NCBI GenBank assembly: GCA_030066685.1
Contig: JASJBF010000001.1
Span: 1-64,000 of the forward strand
DNA: 64,000 nucleotides
Source of the DNA: Kiloniellales bacterium
Lineage (GTDB): Bacteria > Pseudomonadota > Alphaproteobacteria > Kiloniellales > JAKSBE01
Direction of reading: 5' to 3'
The notes beneath the pieces were generated by a model, which saw only the letters and a program-made list of their open reading frames with translations, made no database searches and was not told the origin of the DNA. Position numbers and translations under genes: made by a program. Numbering within the stretch: the stretch's first letter is position 1; every line of letters begins with the position of its first letter. Of the stretch, positions 21,922 through 55,146 are shown one piece after another.

Positions 21922-22359
21922 ATGCGCCTTCAACTGGCCCTCAACGTGCGCGATATCGACGAGGCCGTGGCCTACTATGGCCGACTCTTCGGCGTGAAGC
22001 CGCACAAGCGGCGGCCGGGCTATGCCAATTTCGCGATCGCGATGCCGCCGCTGAAGCTCGTACTCTTCGAGAACCCCGAGGCCGCCGAGCGCCTGCACCA
22101 TCTGGGCGTCGAGGTCCTCGGCCAGGGCACCCTGGCCGAGACCCAACGGCGTCTCGAGACTGTCGGCTTGCTCGACGACGTTCAGCTGGAGGAGACCTGC
22201 TGCCACGCGACCCAGGACAAGCTCTGGTCCCAGGAACCCCAGGGCCTGCGCTGGGAGTGGTATCGGATCACCGACGATGCGCCCGCCGAGGCCCAGGAGA
22301 CTCCGGCGCCGGGCTGCTGCACCGGGGACAGCGCGGCGCGGCCGGTGGCCGCGACCTGA
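21922..22359 (+). CDS. ArsI/CadI family glyoxalase-fold protein
   Basis: Vicinal-oxygen-chelate (glyoxalase) fold protein of 145 residues. The N-terminal strand-helix MRLQLALNVRDIDEAVAYYG is characteristic, and the vicinal cysteine pair in LEETCCHATQDKLW matches the arsenic-binding pair of ArsI. ArsI cleaves the C-As bond of trivalent organoarsenicals; close relatives (CadI) are cadmium-induced. A further Cys-Cys pair (PAPGCCTGDS) is in the C-terminal tail, as in ArsI. It is 14 bp upstream of the SigZ-like gene, which implies cotranscription. No arsR or arsB is in the window. Confidence 0.82.
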   Translation: MRLQLALNVRDIDEAVAYYGRLFGVKPHKRRPGYANFAIAMPPLKLVLFENPEAAERLHHLGVEVLGQGTLAETQRRLETVGLLDDVQLEETCCHATQDKLWSQEPQGLRWEWYRITDDAPAEAQETPAPGCCTGDSAARPVAAT

Positions 22360-22373
22360 AGGGCAGGTGAGGC

Positions 22374-22964
22374 ATGGCGGAGCAGAGCAGTGCGGATCAG
22401 GTCTCCTGGGTGGCCTTCCAGGCCCGTCTGCGCGCCTATCTGCGCCGGCGGGTCGATCCGGCCGCGGTCGACGACCTGGTCGGCGACATCCTGCTCCGCC
22501 TGGTCCGGCACCGCGAGGCCCTCGAGGCGGCGCGCGATCCGGTGGCCTGGATGCTCCGCCTTGCGGCCAATGCCGTGACGGACCATCACCGCCGGCGCGA
22601 CGTCGAGAAGCGTGCCTTGTCGCGTGCCCGGATCGAGTTCGTGACGGAAGCCGCGGCGGAGGCGGCCGACGAGGGCGCCACCGAGGAGATCGGCCACTGC
22701 CTGCGGCCGCTCGTCGAGGCCCTGCCGGCCCGCTACCGGGAGGCCCTGCTGCTGACCGAGATCGAGGGCCTGACCCGGGCCGAGGCCGCGCTGCGCCTCG
22801 GCCTCTCGCCTTCGGGCATGAAGTCCCGGGTTCAGCGCGGCCGCGCCAAGCTGAAACAGGCGCTGCTGCGCTGCTGCGAGATCCGGACGGATCGGCGCGG
22901 CGGCGTCCTGGACTACCGGCGGCGGCGCGCGGACGTCGGACTGACGGGTTGCCGTCCTTGCTGA
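22374..22964 (+). CDS. sigZ: ECF-type RNA polymerase sigma factor, SigZ-like
   Basis: Sigma factor of 196 residues. Region 2 covers about residues 12-80 (LRAYLRRRVDPAAVDDLVGDILLRLVRH, MLRLAANAVTDHHRRR) and region 4 about 105-165 (LPARYREALLLTEIEGLTRAEAA then LSPSGMKSRVQRGRAKLKQ). The C-terminal tail after region 4 has a Cys-Cys pair followed by an Asp-Arg-Arg-Gly-Gly block, typical of SigZ, and the very C-terminus has another Cys pair (GCRPC). No anti-sigma gene follows. Vicinal cysteines in both this protein and its ArsI-like partner suggest a thiol- or metalloid-sensitive pair; that link is inference. Confidence 0.82.
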   Translation: MAEQSSADQVSWVAFQARLRAYLRRRVDPAAVDDLVGDILLRLVRHREALEAARDPVAWMLRLAANAVTDHHRRRDVEKRALSRARIEFVTEAAAEAADEGATEEIGHCLRPLVEALPARYREALLLTEIEGLTRAEAALRLGLSPSGMKSRVQRGRAKLKQALLRCCEIRTDRRGGVLDYRRRRADVGLTGCRPC

Positions 22965-23338
22965 AATTCTCGCGCCCCGCGCAGTTGCGAGACAGGCAAT
23001 CGGTTGCCTCGGCGGCCGGTCTTCGATCACCAAAACTTGATCGGCGTAAAAATAATTAAGTATAAGCCCGGCCAAGATTTCCCAATCTGCCAAGTATTTC
23101 TGGGGCTTCCAGGAAAAACCTAGGCCTTTACTGTTGCTTAAGGAACCGGGCGCACCGTCTTCGCGCTGGCCTCCGGAACCCGGAGGGCCCCTGCCTGCCG
23201 GTGCTCCCGGCGGGCCGTGGCCCGCCCGAAGCGGCGGGATTCGAGAGCCTTCGGACCGGGACCAAGGAGCGTCGGCGGAGCCGGGCCTGTAGCAGGGCCC
23301 GGCCCCGATTGGTGACAGCAAAACGGGGGATCGGTGAG
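22965..23338 (+). promoter_or_regulatory. Promoter and long structured leader of the MHYT gene
   Basis: A 374-base gap without a gene. A plausible promoter is TTGATC at 23037-23042, 18 bases, TATAAG at 23061-23066, in a short AT-rich island. That would give a leader of about 265 bases, very GC-rich, with several inverted repeats (for example GCCGGGCC around 23280 with GGCCCGGC just after 23295). I looked for known riboswitch cores, including c-di-GMP, and did not find one I could support. Confidence 0.4.
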
Positions 23339-24184
23339 ATGTTCTCGGAGTTCTTCCTCACGGAACAGCATGCCCAGTTCTACGACGTGGAGCAGAACTA
23401 CACCTTGTGGTTGGTGCTGGTGTCCTATGCGATCGCGGCCTTCGCCGCCTTCGTGTCCTTCTACGTGGTCGAGCGCGTCGTCGCCGCTCCCTCGGCCGGC
23501 GTCCGTATGCGCTGGCTGATGACCGGCGGGGCGGCCATGGGGGCCGGGATCTGGTCCATGCACTTCTCCGGCATGATGGCCTTGAGGATGCCGGCCTGGT
23601 TGTGCGGCAACGCCAATGGCGACATCCACTACGATCCTTTCCTGACGATTTTCTCGGCCGTTTTCGCCATGCTGGCCAGCGGCTTTGCCTTCTACTTCGT
23701 CAGCAAGCGCTCCAAGAACATCGGCCTCCTGCTGGTTGCCGGTACGATCCTCGGCGCCGGCATCGGCCTGATGCACTACACCGGCATGGCGGCAATGCGG
23801 ATGTACGCGATCATCCGCTACGATCCCCTCTGGTTCGCGGTTTCGATCCTGGCCGCCGTGATCCTGGCCAGCTATGCGCTCTGGCAGATGTCCTACACCC
23901 TGGAGGCCCGGCGCCAGGAACGCAGCAACAACCGCGGTGTGGCGGCCATGATCATGGGCCTGGCGATCACCTTGATGCACTACGCGGGCATGGCGGCGAC
24001 CCATTTCCTGGCGGTTTCCGGCGAGCCGGCCAAGGCGCCGCTGGATGGCATCGCGCTCGACGGCACGCTGGTCGGCGTGGCGATCACCGGCGTCGCGGTG
24101 CTGATCCTGGGCATGGCGCTCTTCGCCGCCAACAAGGAGGCCCAGCGGCAGGGGCATCCGATTCCGGCGGTGCAAGGGAGCTGA
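23339..24184 (+). CDS. MHYT domain integral membrane sensor
   Basis: Seven-helix membrane protein of 281 residues made only of the MHYT domain, thought to bind copper and sense diatomic gases. The three signature motifs are WSMHFSGMMA, GLMHYTGMAAM and TLMHYAGMAAT. ATG 23339 (MFSEFFL) is the family-like start; an upstream frame is GC-rich leader. Unlike the better-known members, no GGDEF, EAL or kinase domain follows, so an output partner must be elsewhere or the domain works alone. It stands alone, convergent with the RND pump operon. Confidence 0.88.
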   Translation: MFSEFFLTEQHAQFYDVEQNYTLWLVLVSYAIAAFAAFVSFYVVERVVAAPSAGVRMRWLMTGGAAMGAGIWSMHFSGMMALRMPAWLCGNANGDIHYDPFLTIFSAVFAMLASGFAFYFVSKRSKNIGLLLVAGTILGAGIGLMHYTGMAAMRMYAIIRYDPLWFAVSILAAVILASYALWQMSYTLEARRQERSNNRGVAAMIMGLAITLMHYAGMAATHFLAVSGEPAKAPLDGIALDGTLVGVAITGVAVLILGMALFAANKEAQRQGHPIPAVQGS

Positions 24185-24219
24185 CCCCCGTCCGCGACGA
24201 CCTTTGGACCCAAGTTCTT

Positions 24220-24247
24220 CGGGCGGCGGCCTAAGGGTCGCCGCCCG
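24220..24247. terminator. GC-rich hairpin between convergent genes
   Basis: CGGGCGGCG at 24220-24228 pairs with CGCCGCCCG at 24239-24247 across a 10-base loop. It lies 36 bp after the MHYT stop and 132 bp before the RND permease stop, in a gap of 194 bases. There is no T-run, so terminator function is a guess. Confidence 0.4.
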
Positions 24248-24378
24248 TCGCGTTGCCGCTGGCTTGAGGCCGGGCGGACCCGCGCGAGCCCCGCCGTCAC
24301 CGGCGCCTGTGAGGGCCGCTCACCCGTCGCGTCGTCCCGATCCTGCGGAGCGAAGATCCCGCGAAGGGCCCATCATGG

Positions 24379-27300
24379 CTATTCGGCGGGCGAGGGCGCT
24401 TCGCCCTCCGCGGGCTTCGGTCGCCGGAACTCGCTCAGGCGCTGCATCACCAGGTAGAAGACCGGCGTGAACAGCAGGGACATGATGGTCGCCGCCGCCA
24501 TGCCGCCGACGACCGCGGTGCCGACGGCCTGGCGGCTGGCCGCACCGGCGCCGGCGGCGACCACCAGCGGCATGAAGCCGGCGATGGAGGAGATCGCGGT
24601 CATCAGGATCGGCCGGAACCGCAGCCGGGCGGCCTCGGCCGCCGCCTCCAGGATGCCCTTGCCGGCCTCGCGCTCGGCCTTGGCGAACTCCACGATCAGG
24701 ATCGCGTTCTTGCTGGCCAGGCCGATCAGCAGGACGATGCCGACCTGGGTGTAGACGTTGTTGTCGAACTCGCGGGCGATCAGCGCCGCGACCGTGCCGA
24801 GCACCGCCAGGGGCACGACCAGGATCACCGCCGCGGGGCTGGTCACGCTCTCATATTGGGCGGCCAGCACGAGGAAGACGAGGAGGATCGCCAGGGCGAA
24901 AATGGCGATGGCTTCATTGCCGACTTGGCGCTCCTGGAAGGACACGCCGGTCCACTCGAAGCCCATCGAGGACGGCAGCTCCTCGCGGGCCATGTCCTCC
25001 ATCAGATCCAGGGCCTGTCCGGAGCTGAAGCCGGGCGCCGCCTGTCCGGTGATCGAGGCGGCGGGGTAGAGGTTGTAGCGCAGGATCGTCTGCGGGCCGG
25101 TCACGTAGTCGACGGAGACGAGGGTCCCGACGGGCACCATCTGCCCGGCCCGATTGCGCACCTCGAGCTGCCGGATGTCCTCGGGTCTCAAGCGGAAGGG
25201 ATGATCGGCCTGGATCTTGACCTGCCAGGTGCGGCCGAACCTGTTGAAGTCGTTGACATAGGCCGAGCCCAGGTAGGCCTGGAGGGTGCCGAAGACCTCG
25301 TTCAGGGAGATCCCCAGCGTTTTCGCCTTGGTCCGGTCGACTTCGGCGAAGAGTTGCGGCACGTCGGCGCGGAAGGTGGTGTTGAGGTTAGCGAGGCCCG
25401 TCTGCCCCTCGCCACGCGCGAGGAGTTCCCGCGCCGCTTTTCCCAGTTCGACCAGGCCCGCGCCGCCGCGGTCCTGGAGCTGGAACTGGAAGCCGCCGGC
25501 GACTCCGAGGCCGCTGATGGCCGGCGGCGGGAAGGCGAAGGCGATCGCTTCTTGGATGCCGGCGAGCTGGGCTTGCAGATTTGCCAAGATCGCCCGCTGG
25601 CTGAGCGAGGGGTCGCTGCGCTCGTCCCAGGACTCCATGATGATCCAGACCGTCGCGGCGTTGGCGGCATTGGTGCCGTCGATCACCGAAAAGCCGCCGA
25701 GCGAGACCCAATCCTGCACCCCGGGCGTCTTCTCGAGCATCGCGTCGACCTGATTGAGAACCTGCTGGGTCCGTCCCAAGGAGGCGCCGTCGGGCAGCTG
25801 GATGCTGGCGATGACATAGCCCTGGTCCTCTTCGGGCAGGAAGCCGGTCGGCAAGCGGCCGAACTGCCAGCCGGTCAGGCCGAGGAGCGCGAGGAACAGC
25901 AGCATCACCAGCGCCGATCGACGGAGCAGGGCCCGGGTGAGCGCGCCGTATCCGGCGCCGGCCTTTTCGAATCCCGCATCGAACCAGCGGAAGAAGATGT
26001 TCTTCTTCTCCTTCTGCGGGCGCAGCAGAAGCGCGGCAAGTGCTGGGCTCATGGTCAGGGCGTTGATCGTGCTGAACACCGTCGCCACGGCGATGGTCAG
26101 CGCGAACTGCCGGTACATCTCGCCGGTGATTCCGGGCAGGAAGGCGGCCGGCACGAAGACCGCCAGGAGCACCAGGGTCGTCGCGACGACCGCGCCGGAG
26201 ACCTTGGACATGGCCTTGATCGCGGCCTCGCGGGAATTCATCCCCTTGGCCATCTGAACGTAGGTCGCCTCGACGATGACGATGGCGTCGTCGACGACCA
26301 CGCCGATGGCCAGGACCAGGCCGAAGAGCGTCAGCATGTTGAGGGAGAATCCCATGGCCCCCATGACGGCGAAGGTGCCGATCAGTGAGACCGGGATCGA
26401 GACGGCCGGGATCAGGGTCGCGCGCCAGTCCTGGAGGAAAATGAACAGGACCAGGAACACCAGCCCGGCCGCCTGGAACAGCGTCGAATAGACCTCGTCG
26501 ATCGAAGCCTCGACGAAGAGCGTGGTGTCGTAGGGAATCCGGTATTCCATCCCCTCGGGGAAGCGGTCGGAGAGCTCCTTCATCGTTTCGCGAACGGCGA
26601 CCGCCATATCGAGCGCGTTGGCGCCGGGCAGCTGATAGATGACGACGCTGGCCGAGGGTGCACCGTTCAGGCGGGAGGTCAGGTTGTAGTCCTTGCCGCC
26701 GAGCTCGACCCTGGCAACGTCTTTCAGGCGGACGATGCGGCCGTCCTCCGAGGACTTGACGATGATCTCTTCGAACTGCCCGATCTCGCTCAGGCGGCCC
26801 AGGACGTTGATCGACAGCTGAAAGTTCTGTGATTCCGGGGCCGGCGGCTGACCGATCTGGCCCGCGGCGACCTGGACATTCTGCTCGCGGACTGCGTCGA
26901 ACACGTCCTTGGTGGTGATGCCCCTTGATCTGAGCTGCTGCGGATCGAGCCAGATCCGCATGCTGTAGTCACTCGCCGGGAAGACCGTGACCTCGCCCAC
27001 GCCGTCGATCCGGCTCAAGGTGTCGCGCAGCTGAAGCGTTGCATAGTTGCTGAGAAAGAGGTCGTCGTAGCGGCCATCGGGCGACACCAGCGAGATGAAC
27101 TGGACGATGTTGGTCGACTTCTTCTTGGTGTTGATTCCCTCGCGCTTGACCTCCTCCGGGAGCTTGGGCTCCGCCAGCGTGACGCGGTTCTGGGTGAGGA
27201 TCTGCGCCAGGTCGAGGTCGCTGCCGACCTCGAAGGTCACGGTCAGGGTATAGGTGCCGTCGCTGGCGCTGGTCGAGGACATGTAGATCATGCCTTCGAC

Positions 27301-44853: not shown

Positions 44854-46334
44854 GATCCTGTCCGGGTCCGGCCACCGGTCTCGTCGAGCCACTCCATCGT
44901 CCGGTTCTCGAGAAAGTCGTAGAAGGGATTGTGCCTCAGGCGCAGCAAGCGGTCGGATGAGAACAGCAGGAGCCCCAGCTCGCCCTGGAGGTTGATTTGC
45001 CCGAGGAACACGAGCTCGCCGTCTGCAGGCGCACGCCGGCCGTAGAGGGGATCGTCCGGGGGAAAGGGCAGGGCCACGTGGGACAGCGAGATCAAGCCCA
45101 AGGGCCAGGAGAGCCCGAGCGGCTCGGTCACCGAGGCCGTCGAAAGCGTTGCCTTGCGCCGGCTGACCACGGCATCGGTCCCCGGGTCAATATTGGTGAC
45201 GAGGACCAGTTCGAAGGGCAGGCTCTCGTTCCCCATCAGCCGTTCGATCAGCGGGCTCGGGTCGGAGATCAGCAGGGTCGACTTGGCGCTCTTGCGGTTG
45301 ATGTCGAAGAGGACGAGTTCGTGGTCGCCAGGCGCCAGGTGCTCGAGCAGATTGTCGACCACGGCGTCGACCGAGACCGTCGCATCGACGCTCGACAGGA
45401 AGATCAAGGTCGGCGGAAAGCCCTCGATCGGCCCGGGCTCCGCCAGGGCCTCGACGCGCTCGGCGAGGGAGACCGTCAGTCGGCGAACCTGCACGATGGA
45501 ATTGGTCGTGAAGGAGTTGTACTTGAAGGGATCGAACTCCGGCACGACGTCCGCCCAGGCGAAGCTTTCCAGGCCGGGCAGGGCTGCCAGGCGGGCCTTC
45601 CACTTGGCCAGCGTCGCCAACGGGCTGATGCCGATTGCCGGGGACACGAGGGTCAGGCTGGCCGGCGGCGGCGCGACGACCCCCGCCATGGCGTCCAGTC
45701 CGTATTCGACGGCCAGGGCGGAGCCGGTCGAATAGCCGATCATGTGGACCGGGCCGTCTCCGACCTTGGATGCAAGGTGCGCCATGCCCAGCCGCACCGC
45801 CGCGGTGGTGTCTTCCCAGCTTGCGGCCAAGAGCCCCGAGGGAATGGTCCCGTGGCCGGGCAGGCGGAGCCCGAGCACCCAGTAGCCCTGTCGGTTCAAG
45901 GCCTCGCCGATGGCCCGCAGACTGTAGGGCCCATCGGACCTGCCATGGAGCAGAAGCACGCCGCCCGCGGGCCGATCTGCGCTGAGCTCGAAGCTGCGGT
46001 TCCAGTTGGTCTCGCGGCGCCGCGGGTCCGCGGCGCTGCCGGCGCTGTAGCGGACCAGGTCGTTGGCCGGTCCGGTGTCGACCCGCGCGACGACCTGCCG
46101 CTCCAGTTGCGCGAAGAGCTCGTCCTCAAGCCGCCGATAGTCCTCGAAGCTGCGAATCTCCTCCGCCCGATCCAGCGTGAACTCGGCGTCCAGCCTCTCG
46201 GTATGCCAGAGCTGCAGGTCCGGTCTGCCGGGCGCCACCAGGTTGTGCATCACCACGGCTCCGAGTGCGAAGGCGACACCGCCGAAAGAGAGAACCAGTG
46301 CCGCACGTCCGAGCAGTGAGAGGGCAGATCTCAT
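44850..46334 (-). CDS. Membrane-anchored alpha/beta hydrolase (full-length copy)
   Basis: Protein of 494 residues with an N-terminal signal anchor (about 7-31), so the body is periplasmic. The hydrolase domain runs from about 120: GGVLLLHGRSDGPYSLRAIGEAL (oxyanion strand), nucleophile elbow HMIGYSTGSALAVEY, catalytic Asp region FLSSVDATVS. The C-terminal ~100 residues have no obvious match and end in LDETGGRTRTGS. Its first ~101 residues are nearly identical (8 differences by eye) to the chimera at 47617-47994, showing that the region was duplicated. The gene follows the DUF900-type gene at 46365-47561 by 30 bp. Confidence 0.85.
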   Translation of the reverse strand: MRSALSLLGRAALVLSFGGVAFALGAVVMHNLVAPGRPDLQLWHTERLDAEFTLDRAEEIRSFEDYRRLEDELFAQLERQVVARVDTGPANDLVRYSAGSAADPRRRETNWNRSFELSADRPAGGVLLLHGRSDGPYSLRAIGEALNRQGYWVLGLRLPGHGTIPSGLLAASWEDTTAAVRLGMAHLASKVGDGPVHMIGYSTGSALAVEYGLDAMAGVVAPPPASLTLVSPAIGISPLATLAKWKARLAALPGLESFAWADVVPEFDPFKYNSFTTNSIVQVRRLTVSLAERVEALAEPGPIEGFPPTLIFLSSVDATVSVDAVVDNLLEHLAPGDHELVLFDINRKSAKSTLLISDPSPLIERLMGNESLPFELVLVTNIDPGTDAVVSRRKATLSTASVTEPLGLSWPLGLISLSHVALPFPPDDPLYGRRAPADGELVFLGQINLQGELGLLLFSSDRLLRLRHNPFYDFLENRTMEWLDETGGRTRTGS

Positions 46335-46364
46335 GCTTGCTTCCTCCGAACGCGAGATGGACCG

Positions 46365-47561
46365 CTATCGGCCACGGGTCAGGACCCAATAGAGCTTGCC
46401 GTCCGGTGTTTCGACCTTGTACAGCAGCCGGCTGCGGGGCAGACCCGGGTTGGTCAAACGCAGGAACAGGTCGTCGAAGAACTCCGGCGTCTCGAGGCTG
46501 AAGTTATGGAAGTTGCGTGTGCGGTTTACCGGGGTGACGTCCACCAGGGTGATCAACTGGCTGTCGGGCTCGATAAGATCCACGACCTGGATTGCCTCTT
46601 CCAGCTGATCCACGTCCAAGGTGCTCTCGCCGCGCCGCCGCCCCCAATTGACGATGCGGCTCATCAGCAGGGCCCGGTCGTTCGAGGAGACGTAGACCGT
46701 CAACTGATCGGCGAGGGCGCTGATTTCCCGCTTGAAGCGCTGATCGAAGGCGTCCCGGTCGACATCCGGCGCGGTCAGGATCACGTGCTCGATCTCGGTC
46801 TCCGCATCGGCCAGGTCCGCCTGCTTCGACAGCAGGCTGAAGGCGTCGGTCACCACCTGGGCCCCCATGCTGTTGGCGACGAGCCAGAGGCGTTCGGGCC
46901 GGACATCGCGGATGACCATCTCGATGGCGGCGGCAAGTTCAGCGCCGGACTCCTTGGCCACCCGTTGCGCGCGACGGTAGCCGCGCAGCGAGGTCCCCTG
47001 GTTGCCAGGCCAGTCGAAGACCAGCACCGGGGTGTTGATATCCAGGACATGGCCCAGAAACGCCGTCTTGCGCAGGGCCGAGGGGAAGGCCTCCCGGAAG
47101 CCGTGCACGACGACGAGCACCGAGCGGTAGGGCGATGCCTGGACCTGATCCCGCAGTTGCGCGACGAAGGCCGCCCGCTCCACGGTCGCCACGTCCTGCA
47201 GGTTGATGGCCTTGTTCTGGAACCACTCGGTGGGATTGATGATCATGCCGATGCCCAAGGTCGGCTTGATCCTCGTGTCGAAGGACCCGAAGGTGAGCGC
47301 ATCCGATACTTCGATGCCGAAGCGCTCCTCCACCGCTTCGCCCTCGGCCTTCGAACGACGATTGGTGACGAAGAAGAACCTGTAGACTCCCCGCTCGGCC
47401 AGCTGGGCGACCGTCATGCGTCGGAACACGAAGGTCTCGGCGCGCTCCAGGGCGGCTTCCAGGTCGAGAAAGACGACCATGTAGAGCCAGATCCCGAGCG
47501 CCAGCACGAGAAGCGAGATCGCCGCCAGAGCGAGCCACAGCCGCCGTTTCAGCACTGCCAT
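46365..47561 (-). CDS. Membrane-anchored DUF900-type alpha/beta hydrolase, active copy
   Basis: Protein of 398 residues with one N-terminal membrane anchor (about 8-32). The DUF900 alpha/beta-hydrolase domain has VLVVVHGFREAFPSALRKTA, VFDWPGNQGTSLRGYRRA and the nucleophile elbow LVANSMGAQV with Ser231. A conserved basic block RNFHNFSLETPEFFDDLFLRL is near the end. It is about three quarters identical by eye to the copy at 48025-49218. Gene order hydrolase pair here repeats that of the upstream copy, the result of a tandem duplication. Family members are lipase/esterase-like with unknown substrates. Confidence 0.85.
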   Translation of the reverse strand: MAVLKRRLWLALAAISLLVLALGIWLYMVVFLDLEAALERAETFVFRRMTVAQLAERGVYRFFFVTNRRSKAEGEAVEERFGIEVSDALTFGSFDTRIKPTLGIGMIINPTEWFQNKAINLQDVATVERAAFVAQLRDQVQASPYRSVLVVVHGFREAFPSALRKTAFLGHVLDINTPVLVFDWPGNQGTSLRGYRRAQRVAKESGAELAAAIEMVIRDVRPERLWLVANSMGAQVVTDAFSLLSKQADLADAETEIEHVILTAPDVDRDAFDQRFKREISALADQLTVYVSSNDRALLMSRIVNWGRRRGESTLDVDQLEEAIQVVDLIEPDSQLITLVDVTPVNRTRNFHNFSLETPEFFDDLFLRLTNPGLPRSRLLYKVETPDGKLYWVLTRGR

Positions 47562-47616
47562 CGTCTTCGACTACTTCCGCTTCCGCCGGTCCTGACTTGT
47601 CCTGATGGTGGCAGCG

Positions 47617-47994
47617 TCACCAGCCATTGATCCTGGTCCAGACGGTCTTCGGTTCGCCGTCCTCTAGGACCTGGTAAGCCGGATAGGCGGCGGCGCTGCC
47701 GGCGCTGTAGCGGACCAGGTCGTTGGCCGGTCCAGTGTCGACCCGCGCGACGACCTGCCGGTCCAACTGCGCGAAGAGCGCGTCCTCCAGCCGCCGATAG
47801 TCCTCGAAGCTGCGGATTTCCTCGGCCCGTTCGGCCGTGAACTCAGCGTCCAGCCTCTCTGTGTGCCAGAGCTGCAGCTCCGGTCTGCTGGGCGCGGCAA
47901 GGTTGTGCATCACCACGGCCCCCAGTGCGAAGGCGACACCGCCGAAAGAGAGAACCAGAGCCGCACGTCCGAGCAGCGAGATGGCAGATCTCAT
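47617..47994 (-). CDS. Chimeric truncated hydrolase fused to the tail of the aldolase-like gene
   Basis: An open frame of 125 residues. Residues 1-101 copy the N-terminus of the hydrolase at 44850-46334, including the signal anchor. The last ~24 residues (AYPAYQVLEDGEPKTVWTRI then Asn-Gly-Trp) are identical to the C-terminus of the aldolase-like protein at 49274-50404. The switch occurs in a GCGGCG run at about 47690-47700, present in both parents. Only the anchor and stalk survive, so no enzyme function is expected. It may be expressed, as it has an intact start and follows the DUF900 copy by 30 bp. It marks the joint of the tandem duplication. Confidence 0.8.
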   Translation of the reverse strand: MRSAISLLGRAALVLSFGGVAFALGAVVMHNLAAPSRPELQLWHTERLDAEFTAERAEEIRSFEDYRRLEDALFAQLDRQVVARVDTGPANDLVRYSAGSAAAYPAYQVLEDGEPKTVWTRINGW

Positions 47995-48024
47995 CTTCGC
48001 TTTCTCCCAACGCGAGACGGACCG

Positions 48025-49218
48025 CTATCGACCACGGGTGAGAACCCAGTAGGTCTTGCCGTCGGGCGTCAGGACCTTGTAGAGAAGCCGGCTGCGGGGC
48101 AGACCGGGGTTGGTCAGGCGCAGGAACAAATCGTCGAAGAACTCCGGCATGTCGAGGCCGAAGTTGTGGAAATTGCGGGTGCGGTTGACCGGGGTGACGT
48201 CCACCAGATTGATCAGCTCGCCGCCAGGTTCCATAATGTCCACAACGTTGATCGCCTCTTCCAGCTGTTTCGGTCCCAGGGGGGTCTCTTCGCGACGCCG
48301 TCCCCAGTTGACGATTCGGCTCAGCAGGAGGGCTCGATCGTTGGAGGAGAGGTAGACTGTCAGATGATCGGCCAGGGCCTGGAGCTCCTGCTTGAAACGC
48401 TGGTCGAACTCCTCGCTATCGACATCGGGCCCGGTCAAGATCACGTCTTCGAATTCGGCTTCCGCGTCGGCCATATCCGCCTGCTGGTAGAGCAGGCTGA
48501 AAGCATCGGCCACAACCCGGGCGCCCATGCCGTTCGCGATGAGCCACAGGCGTTCGGGTTGGATGTCGCTGATGATCAGCTCGATCGTGGTTGCGAGCTC
48601 CGCCCCGGACGCCTTGGCCACCATTTCCGCGCCGCGCCGATACCCATCCCGCGAAGTGCCCTGGTTGCCGGGCCAGTCGAACAGGAGTACCGGGGTGTTT
48701 ATGTCCAGGACGTGGCCCAGGAACGCCGTCTTGCGAAGGGCCGAGGGGAAGCGCTCCCGGAACCCGTGCAAGACGATCAACATGGATCGGTAGGGCGATG
48801 CTTCGACCAGCTCTCGCATCTGCTCGACAAAAGCCGCCCGCTCCAGAACCTTAGCGTCCTGCAACTTGATCGCCTTGTTCTGGAACCAGTCGGTGGGATT
48901 GATGATCATGCTGATGCCCAAGTTCGGCTCAATCCTGGTGTCATAGGATCCGAAGGTCACTGCGTCTTCTCGCTCGCGCCCAAAGCGGTCTTCCACCGAC
49001 CCGTCCTGGACCTCCGAACGACGATTGGTCGCGAAGAAGAAGCGGTGGTCTCCCTGCTCCGCCAACTTGGCCACCGTCATGCGCCGAAACTCGAAGGTCT
49101 CGGCGCGCCGTAAGGCAGATTCCAGGTCCAGGAATACGACCATGTAGAGCCAGATCCCGAGCGCGAGTAGCGAGATCGCCCCGAGAGCGAGCCAAAGCGG
49201 CCGTTTCAAGACGGACAT
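48025..49218 (-). CDS. DUF900-type alpha/beta hydrolase copy lacking the nucleophile
   Basis: Protein of 397 residues, anchor at about 8-31, same layout as the gene at 46365-47561. The blocks VLHGFRERFPSALRKTA and LFDWPGNQGTSRDGYRRG are kept. The nucleophile elbow reads LIANGMGARV: Gly230 (GGC, plus 48529-48531) stands where the other copy has Ser231 (AGC), a single A-to-G change. The rest of the protein is intact and without stops, so this looks like a conserved pseudoenzyme, possibly a binding or regulatory partner of the active copy. It lies 55 bp downstream of the aldolase-like gene. Confidence 0.85.
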   Translation of the reverse strand: MSVLKRPLWLALGAISLLALGIWLYMVVFLDLESALRRAETFEFRRMTVAKLAEQGDHRFFFATNRRSEVQDGSVEDRFGREREDAVTFGSYDTRIEPNLGISMIINPTDWFQNKAIKLQDAKVLERAAFVEQMRELVEASPYRSMLIVLHGFRERFPSALRKTAFLGHVLDINTPVLLFDWPGNQGTSRDGYRRGAEMVAKASGAELATTIELIISDIQPERLWLIANGMGARVVADAFSLLYQQADMADAEAEFEDVILTGPDVDSEEFDQRFKQELQALADHLTVYLSSNDRALLLSRIVNWGRRREETPLGPKQLEEAINVVDIMEPGGELINLVDVTPVNRTRNFHNFGLDMPEFFDDLFLRLTNPGLPRSRLLYKVLTPDGKTYWVLTRGR

Positions 49219-49273
49219 GGTCTTCGACTACTCCCGCTTCCACCAGTCCGGCAGAGTCATCATGCTAGCATCT

Positions 49274-50404
49274 TCACCAGCCGTTGATCCGGGTCCAGAC
49301 GGTCTTCGGCTCGCCGTCCTCTAGGACCTGGTAAGCCGGATAGGCGGCGGCGGTGAAGCAGGCGTGGTTGGGCAGGACGCGGACCAGGGTGCCGACCGGC
49401 AGGCGGTCGTACCAGGCCGGATCGGGGACCGCGATGCGGCCGTGCTCCTGGCTGACGCCGATCACAGCGAGCCCCGGCAGCCGCTTGCCGTCGGCGTCGC
49501 AGACGTAGCCGAAGCCGGCATCGGGCAGGAAGGTATTGGCGCCGAGATCCTTGGACAGGGCCAGGCCGCCGGCGTCGATCAGGACCGTGCCCGCCGCCCG
49601 GTTGTGGCCGATGACGCTGGCCAGGACCGAGAGCGCCAGGTCGTCCGGCCCGCAGACGCCGCGGCCGAGCTGGTCCAGGTCGAAGAAGACGTGGACCCCG
49701 CAGCGCACCTCGGTGACGCCAGTCAGGTCCTGGGCGAAGGCCACGGTCGGGGTCGAGCCGAGGCTGACGATGTCGACGGCATGGCCGGCAGCGCGCAGGC
49801 GCTGCGACGCCCGGACCACCGCGGCCCGTTCCTCCTCGGCGATCTTGGCGATCTCGGCCGGGTCCTTGGTCCCGTAGGACTGGCCGGCGTGGGTCATCAC
49901 CCCGCGCAGGGTGATCCTGGGGCAGGTGCCGAGAACCTGAGCGACGCTCAGCAGCTCCTCGCTCTCCGGCGACAGACCGGCGCGGCGGTCGCCACAGTCG
50001 ATCTCGATCAGGAACTCTAGGTCGACCTCTTCGCCCTCGGCGTAGGCCGCCGCCGCCTCGGCCAGAGCGAGGTTGTCGGTGACCAGCTTCAGCCCTGTGC
50101 CGTACTCGAGCATGACCCGCACGGCCCGGGCCAGCTTGTTCGGAGACAGGCCGACCGCATAGAGGATGTCCTTGAAGCCGGCGCCGGCGAAGTACTCGGC
50201 CTCGGCCAGGGTCGAAACCGTGATCGGCGCCCCGGCTTCCGGGTCGGTGACACGCCGCGCGACCTCGATCGACTTGGCGGTCTTGAGGTGCGGGCGCAGG
50301 GTGACGCCGTGCCGCTTCGCGATCTCCAGGAAGCGCCGGGCGTTGGCCTCCATCACGGCGCGGTCCAGCAGAAGGCAGGGAGTCTCCAGGGACTCCAGGG
50401 TCAT
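49274..50404 (-). CDS. PLP-dependent D-threonine aldolase/D-serine dehydratase-like protein
   Basis: Fold-type III PLP enzyme (alanine racemase N-terminal domain family) of 376 residues. The PLP lysine is probably Lys41 in LRPHLKTAKS. The metal-binding pair of the DSD1/DTA family is in LPNHACFTAAAYPAYQV (His and Cys), and VMTHAGQSYG and YGFVC-type FGYVCDADGK are also typical. ATG 50404 has GGGGGAG upstream; an earlier start at 50428 is weaker. It cleaves D-threonine/D-3-hydroxyaspartate or deaminates D-serine; which one is open. The divergent neighbour is a D-arginine-dehydrogenase-like gene, so D-amino-acid use is the shared theme. Its 3' end was copied into the chimera at 47617-47994. Confidence 0.85.
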   Translation of the reverse strand: MTLESLETPCLLLDRAVMEANARRFLEIAKRHGVTLRPHLKTAKSIEVARRVTDPEAGAPITVSTLAEAEYFAGAGFKDILYAVGLSPNKLARAVRVMLEYGTGLKLVTDNLALAEAAAAYAEGEEVDLEFLIEIDCGDRRAGLSPESEELLSVAQVLGTCPRITLRGVMTHAGQSYGTKDPAEIAKIAEEERAAVVRASQRLRAAGHAVDIVSLGSTPTVAFAQDLTGVTEVRCGVHVFFDLDQLGRGVCGPDDLALSVLASVIGHNRAAGTVLIDAGGLALSKDLGANTFLPDAGFGYVCDADGKRLPGLAVIGVSQEHGRIAVPDPAWYDRLPVGTLVRVLPNHACFTAAAYPAYQVLEDGEPKTVWTRINGW

Positions 50405-50587
50405 GGCTGGCTCCCCCGTTTGCTGCATATCCCCCGGTGCATATCTCCTGTATAGCGCACTTGGACCGCCGGGATAGAGCGAAAGCGGGCGGCAAGGGCG
50501 CGGCGCGGCGCGGCGGGAGGTCTCGCCGACCCGGGCCTTTCGGCGCTAGTCTGCGCTCGGTGGAATCGGGCGAGGGCGCGTCGAGCG

Positions 50588-51738: not shown

Positions 51739-52734
51739 TCAGGCCGCGTCGTGGAAGATGATGCCGAGGGTGTGGCGGCGGCCGCAGCGCAGGCGGCTGA
51801 CGCCGTGGCGCAGCTTGACCCGGTAGGGGCCGCGGCCGCCCTGGACCGGGCGCTCGTTGACGGCGAAGATCACGGCCTCGCCCCGAACCAGCGGCACGAC
51901 CTCGGCGCGGGACTGCATCCGGGGGCGCTGCTCGGTCAGGACGAACTCGCCGCCCTCGAAGTCCATGCCGGGCCGATCGAGCAGGACGGCGAGCTGCAGC
52001 GGGAAGGCCAGGTCGCCGTAGAGGTCCTGGTGCAGGCAGTTATAGTCGCCCGTCCCGTAGCGCAGGAGCAGCGGCGTGGGGCGCTCCTGGCCGGCGGCGT
52101 GGCAAGCGGCGAGGAAGTCCGCCAATTGCTCTGGATAGCGCTGCGCCTGCCCGGTGACCTCCATCCAGCGGTTGGCCAGGGGCACGATGCGGGAGTAGGC
52201 GGCCTGGCGCAGGTCCTCGACCAGGCCGGGAAGGGGATAGCGGAAATAGCGGTACTCGCCGGAGCCGAAGCCGTGCCGCTTCATCACCACGGTGCTGCGG
52301 TAGAGCGCGTCGTCGTCGTAGACGGCCGCCAGTTCGCGGCATTCGGCCTCGGTCAGAAGGGGGCCGGTCAGGCCGTAGCCCCGGTCGTCGATCTCGGCGG
52401 TGATCCGCTCCCAGTCGAGGGCCGCGACCCGTTCGCCGATGCGGTGCGGCCGGCGGGCTCGCTGGCGCCTGGCGTCGGGTCCCTGGTCGGGGCGGCAGCG
52501 CTTGCAGGGCCGGAAGCCGGCCCGCTCGGCCGCCTCCCTGCTGTCGTAGAAGGTGATGTTGGCGCGGTGCGGCAAGCGGGCCGGGCAGGAGGGCTGGCAA
52601 TAGATGCCTGTGGTCCGAACGGCGGTCCAGAAGTGGCCCTCCGCCGCTGCTGATCCGGCCTGGACCGCGGCCCAGCGCGCGGTATCGCTGGAGAAGTCTT
52701 CCGCCGTCTCCTCGATCTCTCTCGCACTTTCCAT
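51739..52734 (-). CDS. Ada-type zinc domain fused to a 2-oxoglutarate/Fe(II) oxygenase
   Basis: A two-domain protein of 331 residues. Residues about 33-82 are an Ada N-terminal zinc domain: TTGIYCQPSCPARLPHRANI with Cys46 and Cys50, then GFRPCKRCRPD with Cys77 and Cys80. In Ada this domain takes methyl groups from DNA phosphotriesters. Residues about 115-331 are a 2OG-Fe(II) dioxygenase: CLHQDLYGD supplies His235 and Asp237, His310 in KLRHGVSRL is the third ligand, and the Arg pair before HTLGIIFHD binds 2-oxoglutarate. ATG 52734 has AGGAG nine bases upstream. The fusion suggests alkylation sensing joined to oxidative demethylation, in the manner of Ada plus AlkB. It is convergent with the dauA-like gene. 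Confidence 0.85.
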   Translation of the reverse strand: MESAREIEETAEDFSSDTARWAAVQAGSAAAEGHFWTAVRTTGIYCQPSCPARLPHRANITFYDSREAAERAGFRPCKRCRPDQGPDARRQRARRPHRIGERVAALDWERITAEIDDRGYGLTGPLLTEAECRELAAVYDDDALYRSTVVMKRHGFGSGEYRYFRYPLPGLVEDLRQAAYSRIVPLANRWMEVTGQAQRYPEQLADFLAACHAAGQERPTPLLLRYGTGDYNCLHQDLYGDLAFPLQLAVLLDRPGMDFEGGEFVLTEQRPRMQSRAEVVPLVRGEAVIFAVNERPVQGGRGPYRVKLRHGVSRLRCGRRHTLGIIFHDAA

Positions 52735-52823
52735 GGCGACCACTCCTGCAGCGAAGCCTGTGCGCCACAATAGCCTTTGGCGGGAGAGCTTTCCGTCCGA
52801 AGTTTGCGCTCCCGCCGCGCTCT

Positions 52824-53745: not shown

Positions 53746-55146
53746 TCAGTCGGGTTCGTCCTCGGAAGGCGACCAGTCGGTGACAACCTGGAATGCCGCC
53801 TCGCAGCTCTCGCGTTCGAAGACGGAACCCACGGGCGCCTCGAAGATCATGGCCAGGCTGTCGTCGCCTTCGATCAGTTTCCAAATCGGTACGAGCTGGA
53901 TTCTCTTCGGATCATTCAGTTCCTCGTCGCTTTCGCTGCCGGCAAAGACGCGCCAACCGCTGTCCTGCTCGCGGTCGGTGGCCTCGCGGTAGAGAAAACG
54001 AACACAGCCCCCGTCCTCCAAGACGCGCTCGGAGACGAAAGCCAGCTTCGCGCCTTCGCCGAAATAGCGGTCCTGGACCTTGCGCATTCTGGAGACCGTC
54101 TGCTCCGAACCCAGCAGGACTCTGACCCGAGCCAGCCGGTCGGAGGCATCGTAGTCAGCGTAGACCTCGAAGAGGCCGTCGCCCCAGGTGGTCATGAAGA
54201 GGCAGAGCTCGGCCTCGCCGAGGCGCAGGACGCCGGACTCGGTATCGCTGCGCCGGACTTGGCTCATCAGGCGCCAGTGATGCGAATGCGGCCGGAGGTC
54301 GACCGCGTAGAGCCAGTCGTTTTGCGCCTTCAGACCTTGGAGCTGTCGGGCCCGCTCGCGGGCCGTCCCCTCGTCCAGGTCCGACCAACCGAAATGGCCG
54401 TCTTGGTCCGGACCGGGCGGGGCTTCGGCAGCCTCAGCCGCTGCCGCCGCGTCACGCCCCCAGAAGACGACGTCCGCGAGGCCATCCAAGCTGTCGTCGT
54501 GCACCCAGCCGCCGAGGGATTCGACGTCGGCGAGGATCAGCCGAGCCTCGTCGACCGCGGCGTAACCGCGGAACTCGGAGCGGAGGATCTCCGCGTCCGG
54601 CCGCAGCTCGACATAGACCTCCTGCCAGCGGCCGGCGAACTCCTCGTCCTCGGACCGGCGGCGGCCCATGACCGGCAGCACGGCGTCCTTCGGCAGGCCC
54701 GGCGCGACCGCGGCCCAGACGCCGTGAAAGGTGATCCCGTTCTCGACCACGCCGTTCTCGAGATACTGGTCGACTCTCGCGCGATGGCTGACCCTCTGGT
54801 CCAGCGGCACGAGCTGCGCCTGAAAACCCCGGTCTCGGCAGAGGGACTCGAAGTCGGCCTTGAACTCTTCGAGGCTCGCACCGGGGACGTCGTAGGCGTA
54901 GAGCGGATGGGCGCTGCGATCGAAGGCGAGGCCCGCCGCGCGCGCGTCGGGGCCCTCGAGCCGGAAGTCGCGGGCCGCTTCAGCGCTCGCTCGTGCCTCT
55001 TCACTGTTCAGATGGTGGGGCGGCAGCACGGGATCCCGGTCATGGTTCCAGAGGTTCAGAAGGCCGCCGTCGAGCACCAGAAGGATCCCGCTCGGCACCC
55101 GGATCCGGCCCAGCCGTTCCGGCGGATCGAGGCGCAGACGTGTCAT
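53746..55146 (-). CDS. Multi-domain immunity-like protein (DUF2185 C-terminus)
   Basis: Soluble protein of 466 residues, no signal peptide or membrane segment. The last ~100 residues ([37 protein letters not shown]... to [11 protein letters not shown]) fit the DUF2185/Imm33 pattern seen in immunity proteins of polymorphic toxins. The middle part, [25 protein letters not shown], resembles the DUF4241 C-terminal pattern. The N-terminal third ([22 protein letters not shown] and [18 protein letters not shown]) is unassigned. No toxin gene is next to it. It is 47 bp upstream of the pirin gene, and a gap of 48 bp separates it from deoA. Domain calls are by eye and moderate. Confidence 0.65.

Follow-up and report, generated by a model that had tools for sequence, protein, structure and literature searches.

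An Ada zinc domain joined to an Oxygenase-NA domain in a Kiloniellales genome and its proposed place in the adaptive response to alkylation

The window, meaning the whole stretch of 64,000 nucleotides that was analysed, comes from a Kiloniellales genome of 6.0 Mb in 73 contigs. On its minus strand lies a gene for a protein of 331 amino acids (51739..52734; ATG at 52734, stop codon at 51739-51741) in which ORF and Pfam analysis identified an Ada zinc domain, a linker and an Oxygenase-NA domain, in that order. A sequence-only reading of the window had proposed an Ada zinc domain joined to a 2OG/Fe(II) oxygenase at this site, and was right about the frame, the strand and the coordinates as well as about the pairing: PF02805 and PF09859 occupy a single reading frame, both far above their cut-offs. 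Ada_Zn_binding (PF02805) covers residues 19-83 (52486..52680, minus strand) with 104.5 bits against a cut-off of 23. Residues 84-100 (52435..52485, minus strand) form an Arg-rich linker at the fusion junction, which is poorly conserved between the two groups of fusions described below. The oxygenase domain extends over residues 101-331 (51742..52434, minus strand), and within it PF09859 matches residues 159-330 (51745-52260) at full length, model positions 1-172 of 172, with 280.1 bits against a cut-off of 26.2. Pfam found neither an AraC helix-turn-helix (HTH) nor a methyltransferase part in the protein. The gene holds the sole PF09859 match of the source genome, which encodes one other Ada zinc protein, that one with an AraC HTH. 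A pirin gene lies upstream on the same strand, with a gap of 89 nt to the fusion gene.

The four zinc cysteines (Cys46, Cys50, Cys77 and Cys80) are those which the sequence-only reading had named, and the HxD...H ligands that it noted are H235, D237 and H310. In alignment A1 the cysteines are the same in all seven fusions collected, so no cysteine loss was seen among them, and the iron ligands are likewise invariant in 7/7. The E. coli Ada residue that corresponds to Cys46 in the alignment is Cys38. The iron-ligand motif H235-Q-D237 is located at 52024..52032 and the segment from H310 to R320 at 51775..51807, both on the minus strand; H235, D237, H310 and R320 are each invariant in the 28 rows of alignment A3. 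From the roles known in the superfamily, we take H310 to be the third iron ligand and R320 to be the probable 2OG anchor.

Elsewhere in the window, positions 46030-49355 hold a diverged tandem duplication, its pieces 81-91% identical at a spacing of about 1.66 kb, that contains a DUF900-type hydrolase gene together with the first part of a second hydrolase gene. A short ORF at 47617-47994 is chimeric: its C-terminal 25 residues are identical to those at the end of a racemase-like gene at 49274-50428. At 53746-55146 a protein of 466 amino acids has a Pfam match at residues 370-447 (Imm33 immunity domain), the remainder having none at E 0.001.

The AlphaFold model of the fusion protein has a mean pLDDT of 88.9, with the oxygenase part mostly above 90. 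In this model the Ada part superposes on 1u8b, the methylated N-Ada bound to DNA, with an rmsd of 0.9 over 68 residues and 50% identity. Together with the four invariant cysteines, this bears out its assignment as a true Ada N-domain. In E. coli Ada the first zinc cysteine is the methyl acceptor, and methylation turns the N-domain into a tighter, specific DNA binder.

The oxygenase is a full-length member of PF09859, a family already named in Pfam, where the damaged-DNA wording of the title is annotation only and not an assay. The AlkB model PF13532 did not match the fusion protein at E 0.001 and had no match in the rest of the source genome. When the protein was searched with phmmer against the PDB, AlkB chains were the only oxygenases matched, weakly (E 0.016-0.8, the best spanning residues 217-320). 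A profile built from alignment A3 and run against PDB sequences produced five matches with E no higher than 5; none was an oxygenase, and the lowest E was 0.26. An AlkB identity was thus rejected on Pfam, although the weak phmmer match points the opposite way. The nearest folds of the predicted oxygenase are the Pseudomonas putida prolyl 4-hydroxylase (P4H), PHD2, an algal P4H and OGFOD1 (Z 14.5), the best match for the AlphaFold model being 4j25 (Z 15.8, 176 residues, rmsd 3.3). Among the best 50 Foldseek matches ALKBH6 ranked 48th and E. coli AlkB was absent. The sequence-only reading had named grouping with prolyl or small-molecule hydroxylases, together with cysteines not conserved in orthologues, as the result that would count against it. 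The cysteines are conserved in the fusions, and the oxygenase groups with prolyl hydroxylases by fold only: the prolyl 4-hydroxylase-like model PF13640 scores 22.6 bits, below its cut-off of 27.

A domain search for further fusions, which had been suggested from the sequence alone, recovered seven in all, from two genera of one order. The same architecture is present in a congener (locus L120, 84% identical) and in five species of another genus of the order; a third congener genome, 81% complete, gave no match. The fusions make up seven of the 113 distinct oxygenase domains collected, a Variovorax-rich set gathered by similarity to the window protein in which the other 106 are unfused, and they occur in 7 of 61 genomes of the order. 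Judged from the match range, the window has the only fused form among 385 sampled Alphaproteobacteria and also among 398 sampled members of the phylum, with G572, whose row has an early range and an internal stop, left aside. Three other candidates proved to have no Ada part: G034 (match range 33-330) and G154, both taken up for their match range, and G588 (locus L146), which had an early range in the 398-genome survey.

Both domains are under purifying selection. In five within-group pairs dN/dS ranged from 0.06 to 0.28 in the Ada part and from 0.06 to 0.47 in the oxygenase part, and in one between-group pair it was 0.53 and 0.60, respectively, the linker being looser. A literature search, mainly of open-access titles and abstracts, returned no report of an Ada-oxygenase fusion and no assay of PF09859. 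A likely source of the family prediction for Oxygenase-NA is Iyer et al. 2009 in Cell Cycle, and that paper or the Pfam architecture pages may already include the fusion. What would be new is the fusion; both domains are known, and their operon is present in annotated records.

The fusion mirrors an operon of Ada and Oxygenase-NA genes. On Azospirillum lipoferum plasmid AZO_p2 the ada and oxygenase genes overlap by 4 nt, and on Paracoccus aminophilus pAMI5 the order is alkB-ada-oxygenase. We surveyed the same-strand neighbours of 140 other oxygenase loci, a Variovorax-rich set gathered by similarity to the window protein, with the window and loci from L170 on left out. Six are the other fusions. 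An Ada-methyltransferase gene lies upstream in 28 (21 alone, 7 together with AlkB), while AlkB alone accounts for 16 loci, a methyltransferase alone for 7 and methyltransferase plus AlkB for 1. The remaining 82 have no gene of these kinds (Ada zinc, methyltransferase, AlkB) on the same strand within the stretch covered, which for many loci is a flank of about 1.5 kb and for some ends at a contig end. With Paracoccus AlkB as the query, an AlkB gene was found on the same strand within 2.5 kb in 24 of the 140 loci, directly downstream in 22; of the other two, one (L020) lies about 1.3 kb further on and one (L169) upstream of ada. An unvalidated AlkA motif pattern run over the oxygenase loci had no match. 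In one genome (G207:C88, loci L095 and L236) an Ada zinc domain is encoded on either side of an Oxygenase-NA gene, at 24198-24389 and 22239-22430 around the oxygenase at 22636-23445.

A separate AlkB gene so close by indicates that the oxygenase is not simply AlkB. The proposal made from the sequence alone, that the protein combines the jobs of Ada and AlkB, is therefore not upheld in that form: PF13532 is unmatched, a separate AlkB lies near the oxygenase in those 24 loci, and the folds are nearest to P4H and PHD2.

The association extends to gene content. Oxygenase-NA is present in 75 of the 385 sampled Alphaproteobacteria. Taken without regard to genome size or relatedness, 64 of these 75 genomes carry an Ada zinc domain against 85 of the 310 others, and 48 carry AlkB against 63 of the 310, and the same uncorrected counts show mutual co-occurrence of Ada and AlkB (76/149 against 35/236). 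Eleven of the 75 have no Ada zinc domain, and six of these also have no AlkB. At the level of the order, with the weak row G026 left out, an Ada zinc hit was obtained in 32/32 oxygenase genomes and in 6/29 others; AlkB is found in 23/32 and 8/29, respectively. AlkB (PF13532) passes its cut-off in 31 of the 61 genomes of the order, in each of the five genomes of the other genus that carry a fusion, and in none of the three genomes of the window's genus, one of which is 81% complete. As frequent neighbours and through co-occurrence across genomes, the Ada-methyltransferase and AlkB genes thus corroborate the link to alkylation repair drawn in the sequence-only reading.

Between the pirin stop codon and the fusion gene lies an adaptive-response-like box of the form GCAA-N4-CGG, GCAAACTTCGG (52797..52807, minus strand), whose start lies 73 nt ahead of the ATG; the corresponding distance for the fusion gene of the congener is 72 nt. 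When the search ran upstream from the point where the Ada or oxygenase part becomes conserved, the pattern was found to precede 7/7 fusions, which represent two independent groups at most, 16/25 operons and 26/81 solo genes, as compared with 3/113 on the opposite strand and a random background of 3%. With the initially chosen start codons three fusions (L121, L124 and L125) had shown no box, because those starts, which were probably set too far upstream, lie before it. In the three genomes of the genus the box also stands 73, 73 and 76 nt ahead of the HTH-methyltransferase gene, 73 nt being the distance in the window genome. Genome-wide, the pattern is rarer than its reversed control (109 versus 148), and the other genes that it precedes in the window genome are mostly chance-looking frames.

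In the Caulobacter adaptive response GCAA (B-box) and CGG (X-box) are reported with a 3-nt spacer, and its regulator Cada2 is described as an HTH plus methyltransferase protein with an RLHD motif and no zinc domain (PMC10957082). The candidate regulator in the window genome combines HTH_18 with PF01035 and has neither a zinc domain nor the RLHD motif. As the spacer is 4 nt here and in a Caulobacter relative (L017), we call the box similar and not the same. The most induced Caulobacter gene under methylation damage is reported to be ccna_00745, a 2OG dioxygenase gene in an operon with the Ada-like ccna_00746 (PMC10957082). In L017 an Ada-zinc-methyltransferase gene is followed by a PF09859 gene, with GCAAGCATCGG upstream, and the C. 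vibrioides control genome contains a PF09859 match; on these grounds ccna_00745 is probably a PF09859 member. The classical alkB of Caulobacter is given as a different gene, CC0009 (PMC1839093).

A tree built from 80 oxygenase domains groups the fusions of the window's genus with the operon forms found in G035-G038 (99/93). Their Ada part is, outside the congener, closest to the Ada of the same operons, in agreement with the oxygenase tree. The other five fusions form a second group (100/99) with G207 as the nearest row (92/91). For their Ada part the nearest sequence is the operon Ada of G053. This species belongs to the same genus and has its oxygenase elsewhere in the tree, so that the Ada and oxygenase parts of this group disagree. 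The starred branches of the tree favour two separate fusions, although the AU test does not reject a single origin (p 0.186). At the junction, Ada is kept up to CRPD and a short linker, and the oxygenase begins just before its conserved start. This arrangement points to an in-frame loss of the HTH-methyltransferase part of Ada as the probable origin of the fusion, whereby the two genes of an overlapping operon would have been joined. The same tree places two related Oxygenase-NA copies of genome G034 (loci L126 and L127) on a long shared branch.

We consider it somewhat probable that the fusion is an alkylation-repair protein of the adaptive response: damage-inducible, targeted by its Ada domain, acting as an oxygenase on DNA adducts, and born by the joining of operon genes. 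Methylation damage would switch the gene on through the GCAA-N4-CGG box. The Ada domain would bind alkylated DNA and take the methyl group of a backbone methylphosphotriester onto Cys46, and the methylated domain would then keep the joined oxygenase on the damaged DNA. There, the oxygenase might remove or hydroxylate an alkyl adduct that is poorly handled by AlkB and by O6-methylguanine methyltransferases; because AlkB is so often a neighbour gene, its substrate probably differs from that of AlkB. Counting against this reading are the prolyl-hydroxylase-like fold, the 82 loci with no such neighbours in the stretch covered, the 11 oxygenase genomes that carry no Ada zinc domain, and the shortness of the box, together with its 4-nt spacer and the missing RLHD motif of the candidate regulator. 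A natural fusion to Ada, apparently made twice, suggests that the oxygenase works on methylation damage.

The main rival to this DNA-repair reading is a protein substrate. The oxygenase could be a prolyl-hydroxylase-like enzyme acting on a protein of repair, replication or translation, with the Ada domain doing no more than bringing it to damaged DNA; we regard this as unlikely though a serious option. The closest folds of the predicted structure, from the P. putida P4H (Z 15.8) through PHD2 and the algal P4H to OGFOD1, are consistent with such a role. P4H and PHD enzymes carry an arginine 10 residues past the last histidine ligand, just as R320 stands 10 residues past H310, and OGFOD1 has a relative in yeast Tpa1. 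Tpa1 has itself been proposed as a DNA repair oxygenase, which is disputed (PMC6746446). However, a common fold does not establish the substrate, PF13640 remains below its cut-off, the sole PDB oxygenases matched by sequence are AlkB chains, if weakly (E 0.016 and worse), and the partners tested across the genomes belong to DNA repair.

Two co-expressed response proteins might also have become one chain by deletion and act independently, with no joint mechanism. The poorly conserved linker would fit this, as would the 106 unfused homologues and the fact that operons with a 4-nt overlap already co-express both parts. Yet in both groups the cysteines of the Ada part have been retained and the part has stayed under purifying selection despite the loss of the methyltransferase, and the tree favours the same pair having been fused twice, a single origin not being rejected, as noted; we think independent action quite improbable. 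More doubtful still is that the Ada domain has lost methyl uptake and serves as a mere DNA-binding or zinc structural module. Position 47 is Gln in the window and Arg in the other six fusions, and in 3/7 fusions a Gly replaces Arg45, a residue with which E. coli Ada contacts the A-box (PMC4437013). Against this stand the four cysteines, the Cys38 equivalent included, which are invariant in every fusion, and the close fit of the model to methylated N-Ada.

It is conceivable, but very improbable, that the oxygenase acts on the Ada (or methyltransferase) domain itself, with its S-methyl-cysteine as the substrate, the methyl group being oxidised to formaldehyde and the acceptor recharged. This would agree with the operons that pair the oxygenase with suicide methyltransferases, with the two parts having apparently been fused more than once, with the oxygenase tending to occur alongside Ada zinc domains and with a fold like that of protein hydroxylases; if it were true, a one-shot suicide repair protein would become a true enzyme. 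Nonetheless, the 11 oxygenase genomes without an Ada zinc domain speak against it, as does the lack of an Ada neighbour within the stretch covered at most loci. Lastly, an artefact, whether from reading through a GC-rich frame or from a join in the assembly, can be dismissed and the fusion is confirmed as real: long open frames in GC-rich DNA can mimic fusions, and the stop-to-stop frame at this gene is 659 amino acids, so 10 other long frames with Oxygenase-NA, a selection of those available, were scanned, none of which (0/10) had a second, non-oxygenase domain, while the fusion recurs in seven species of two genera with both domains over cut-off and end-to-end alignment.

Under the preferred reading, the fusion would join DNA targeting, methyl capture and oxidation in a single protein. 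If the methylated Ada domain gates the oxygenase, this would be a new use of the Ada switch, in the control of an enzyme instead of transcription. Oxygenase-NA itself has been little studied, though it occurs in about one in five of the sampled Alphaproteobacteria and its probable Caulobacter member is the most methylation-induced gene there.

Several known systems invite comparison. AlkB (PF13532) belongs to the same 2OG/Fe(II) superfamily and to the alkylation response, and is the neighbour gene noted above; it differs in being of another Pfam family than Oxygenase-NA, and both can be found in one gene cluster. Prolyl 4-hydroxylases, PHD2 and OGFOD1 are the closest solved folds to the predicted structure (Z 14-16), whereas they are just 10-18% identical to the oxygenase domain, and we know of no link between them and Ada. 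E. coli Ada shares the N-terminal zinc domain with four cysteines. It continues, however, into an AraC HTH and a methyltransferase where the fusion protein has the oxygenase, and with those parts absent the classic transcription switch is impossible for the latter. The principle of an Ada regulatory domain joined to a base-repair enzyme is shared with the reported Ada-AlkA fusions (PMC1839093), which carry a glycosylase in place of the oxygenase. With the Cada2-type regulon, as described for Caulobacter (PMC10957082), the window has GCAA and CGG in common, while the spacer differs (4 versus 3 nt). A further system is the Ada operon pair, including Caulobacter ccna_00746 (Cada1)/ccna_00745: it has the same two domains in the same order, its genes overlap in the examples named above, and a similar box lies upstream in 16/25 operons, but it consists of two proteins, of which Ada (zinc, with or without HTH) keeps its O6-methylguanine methyltransferase.
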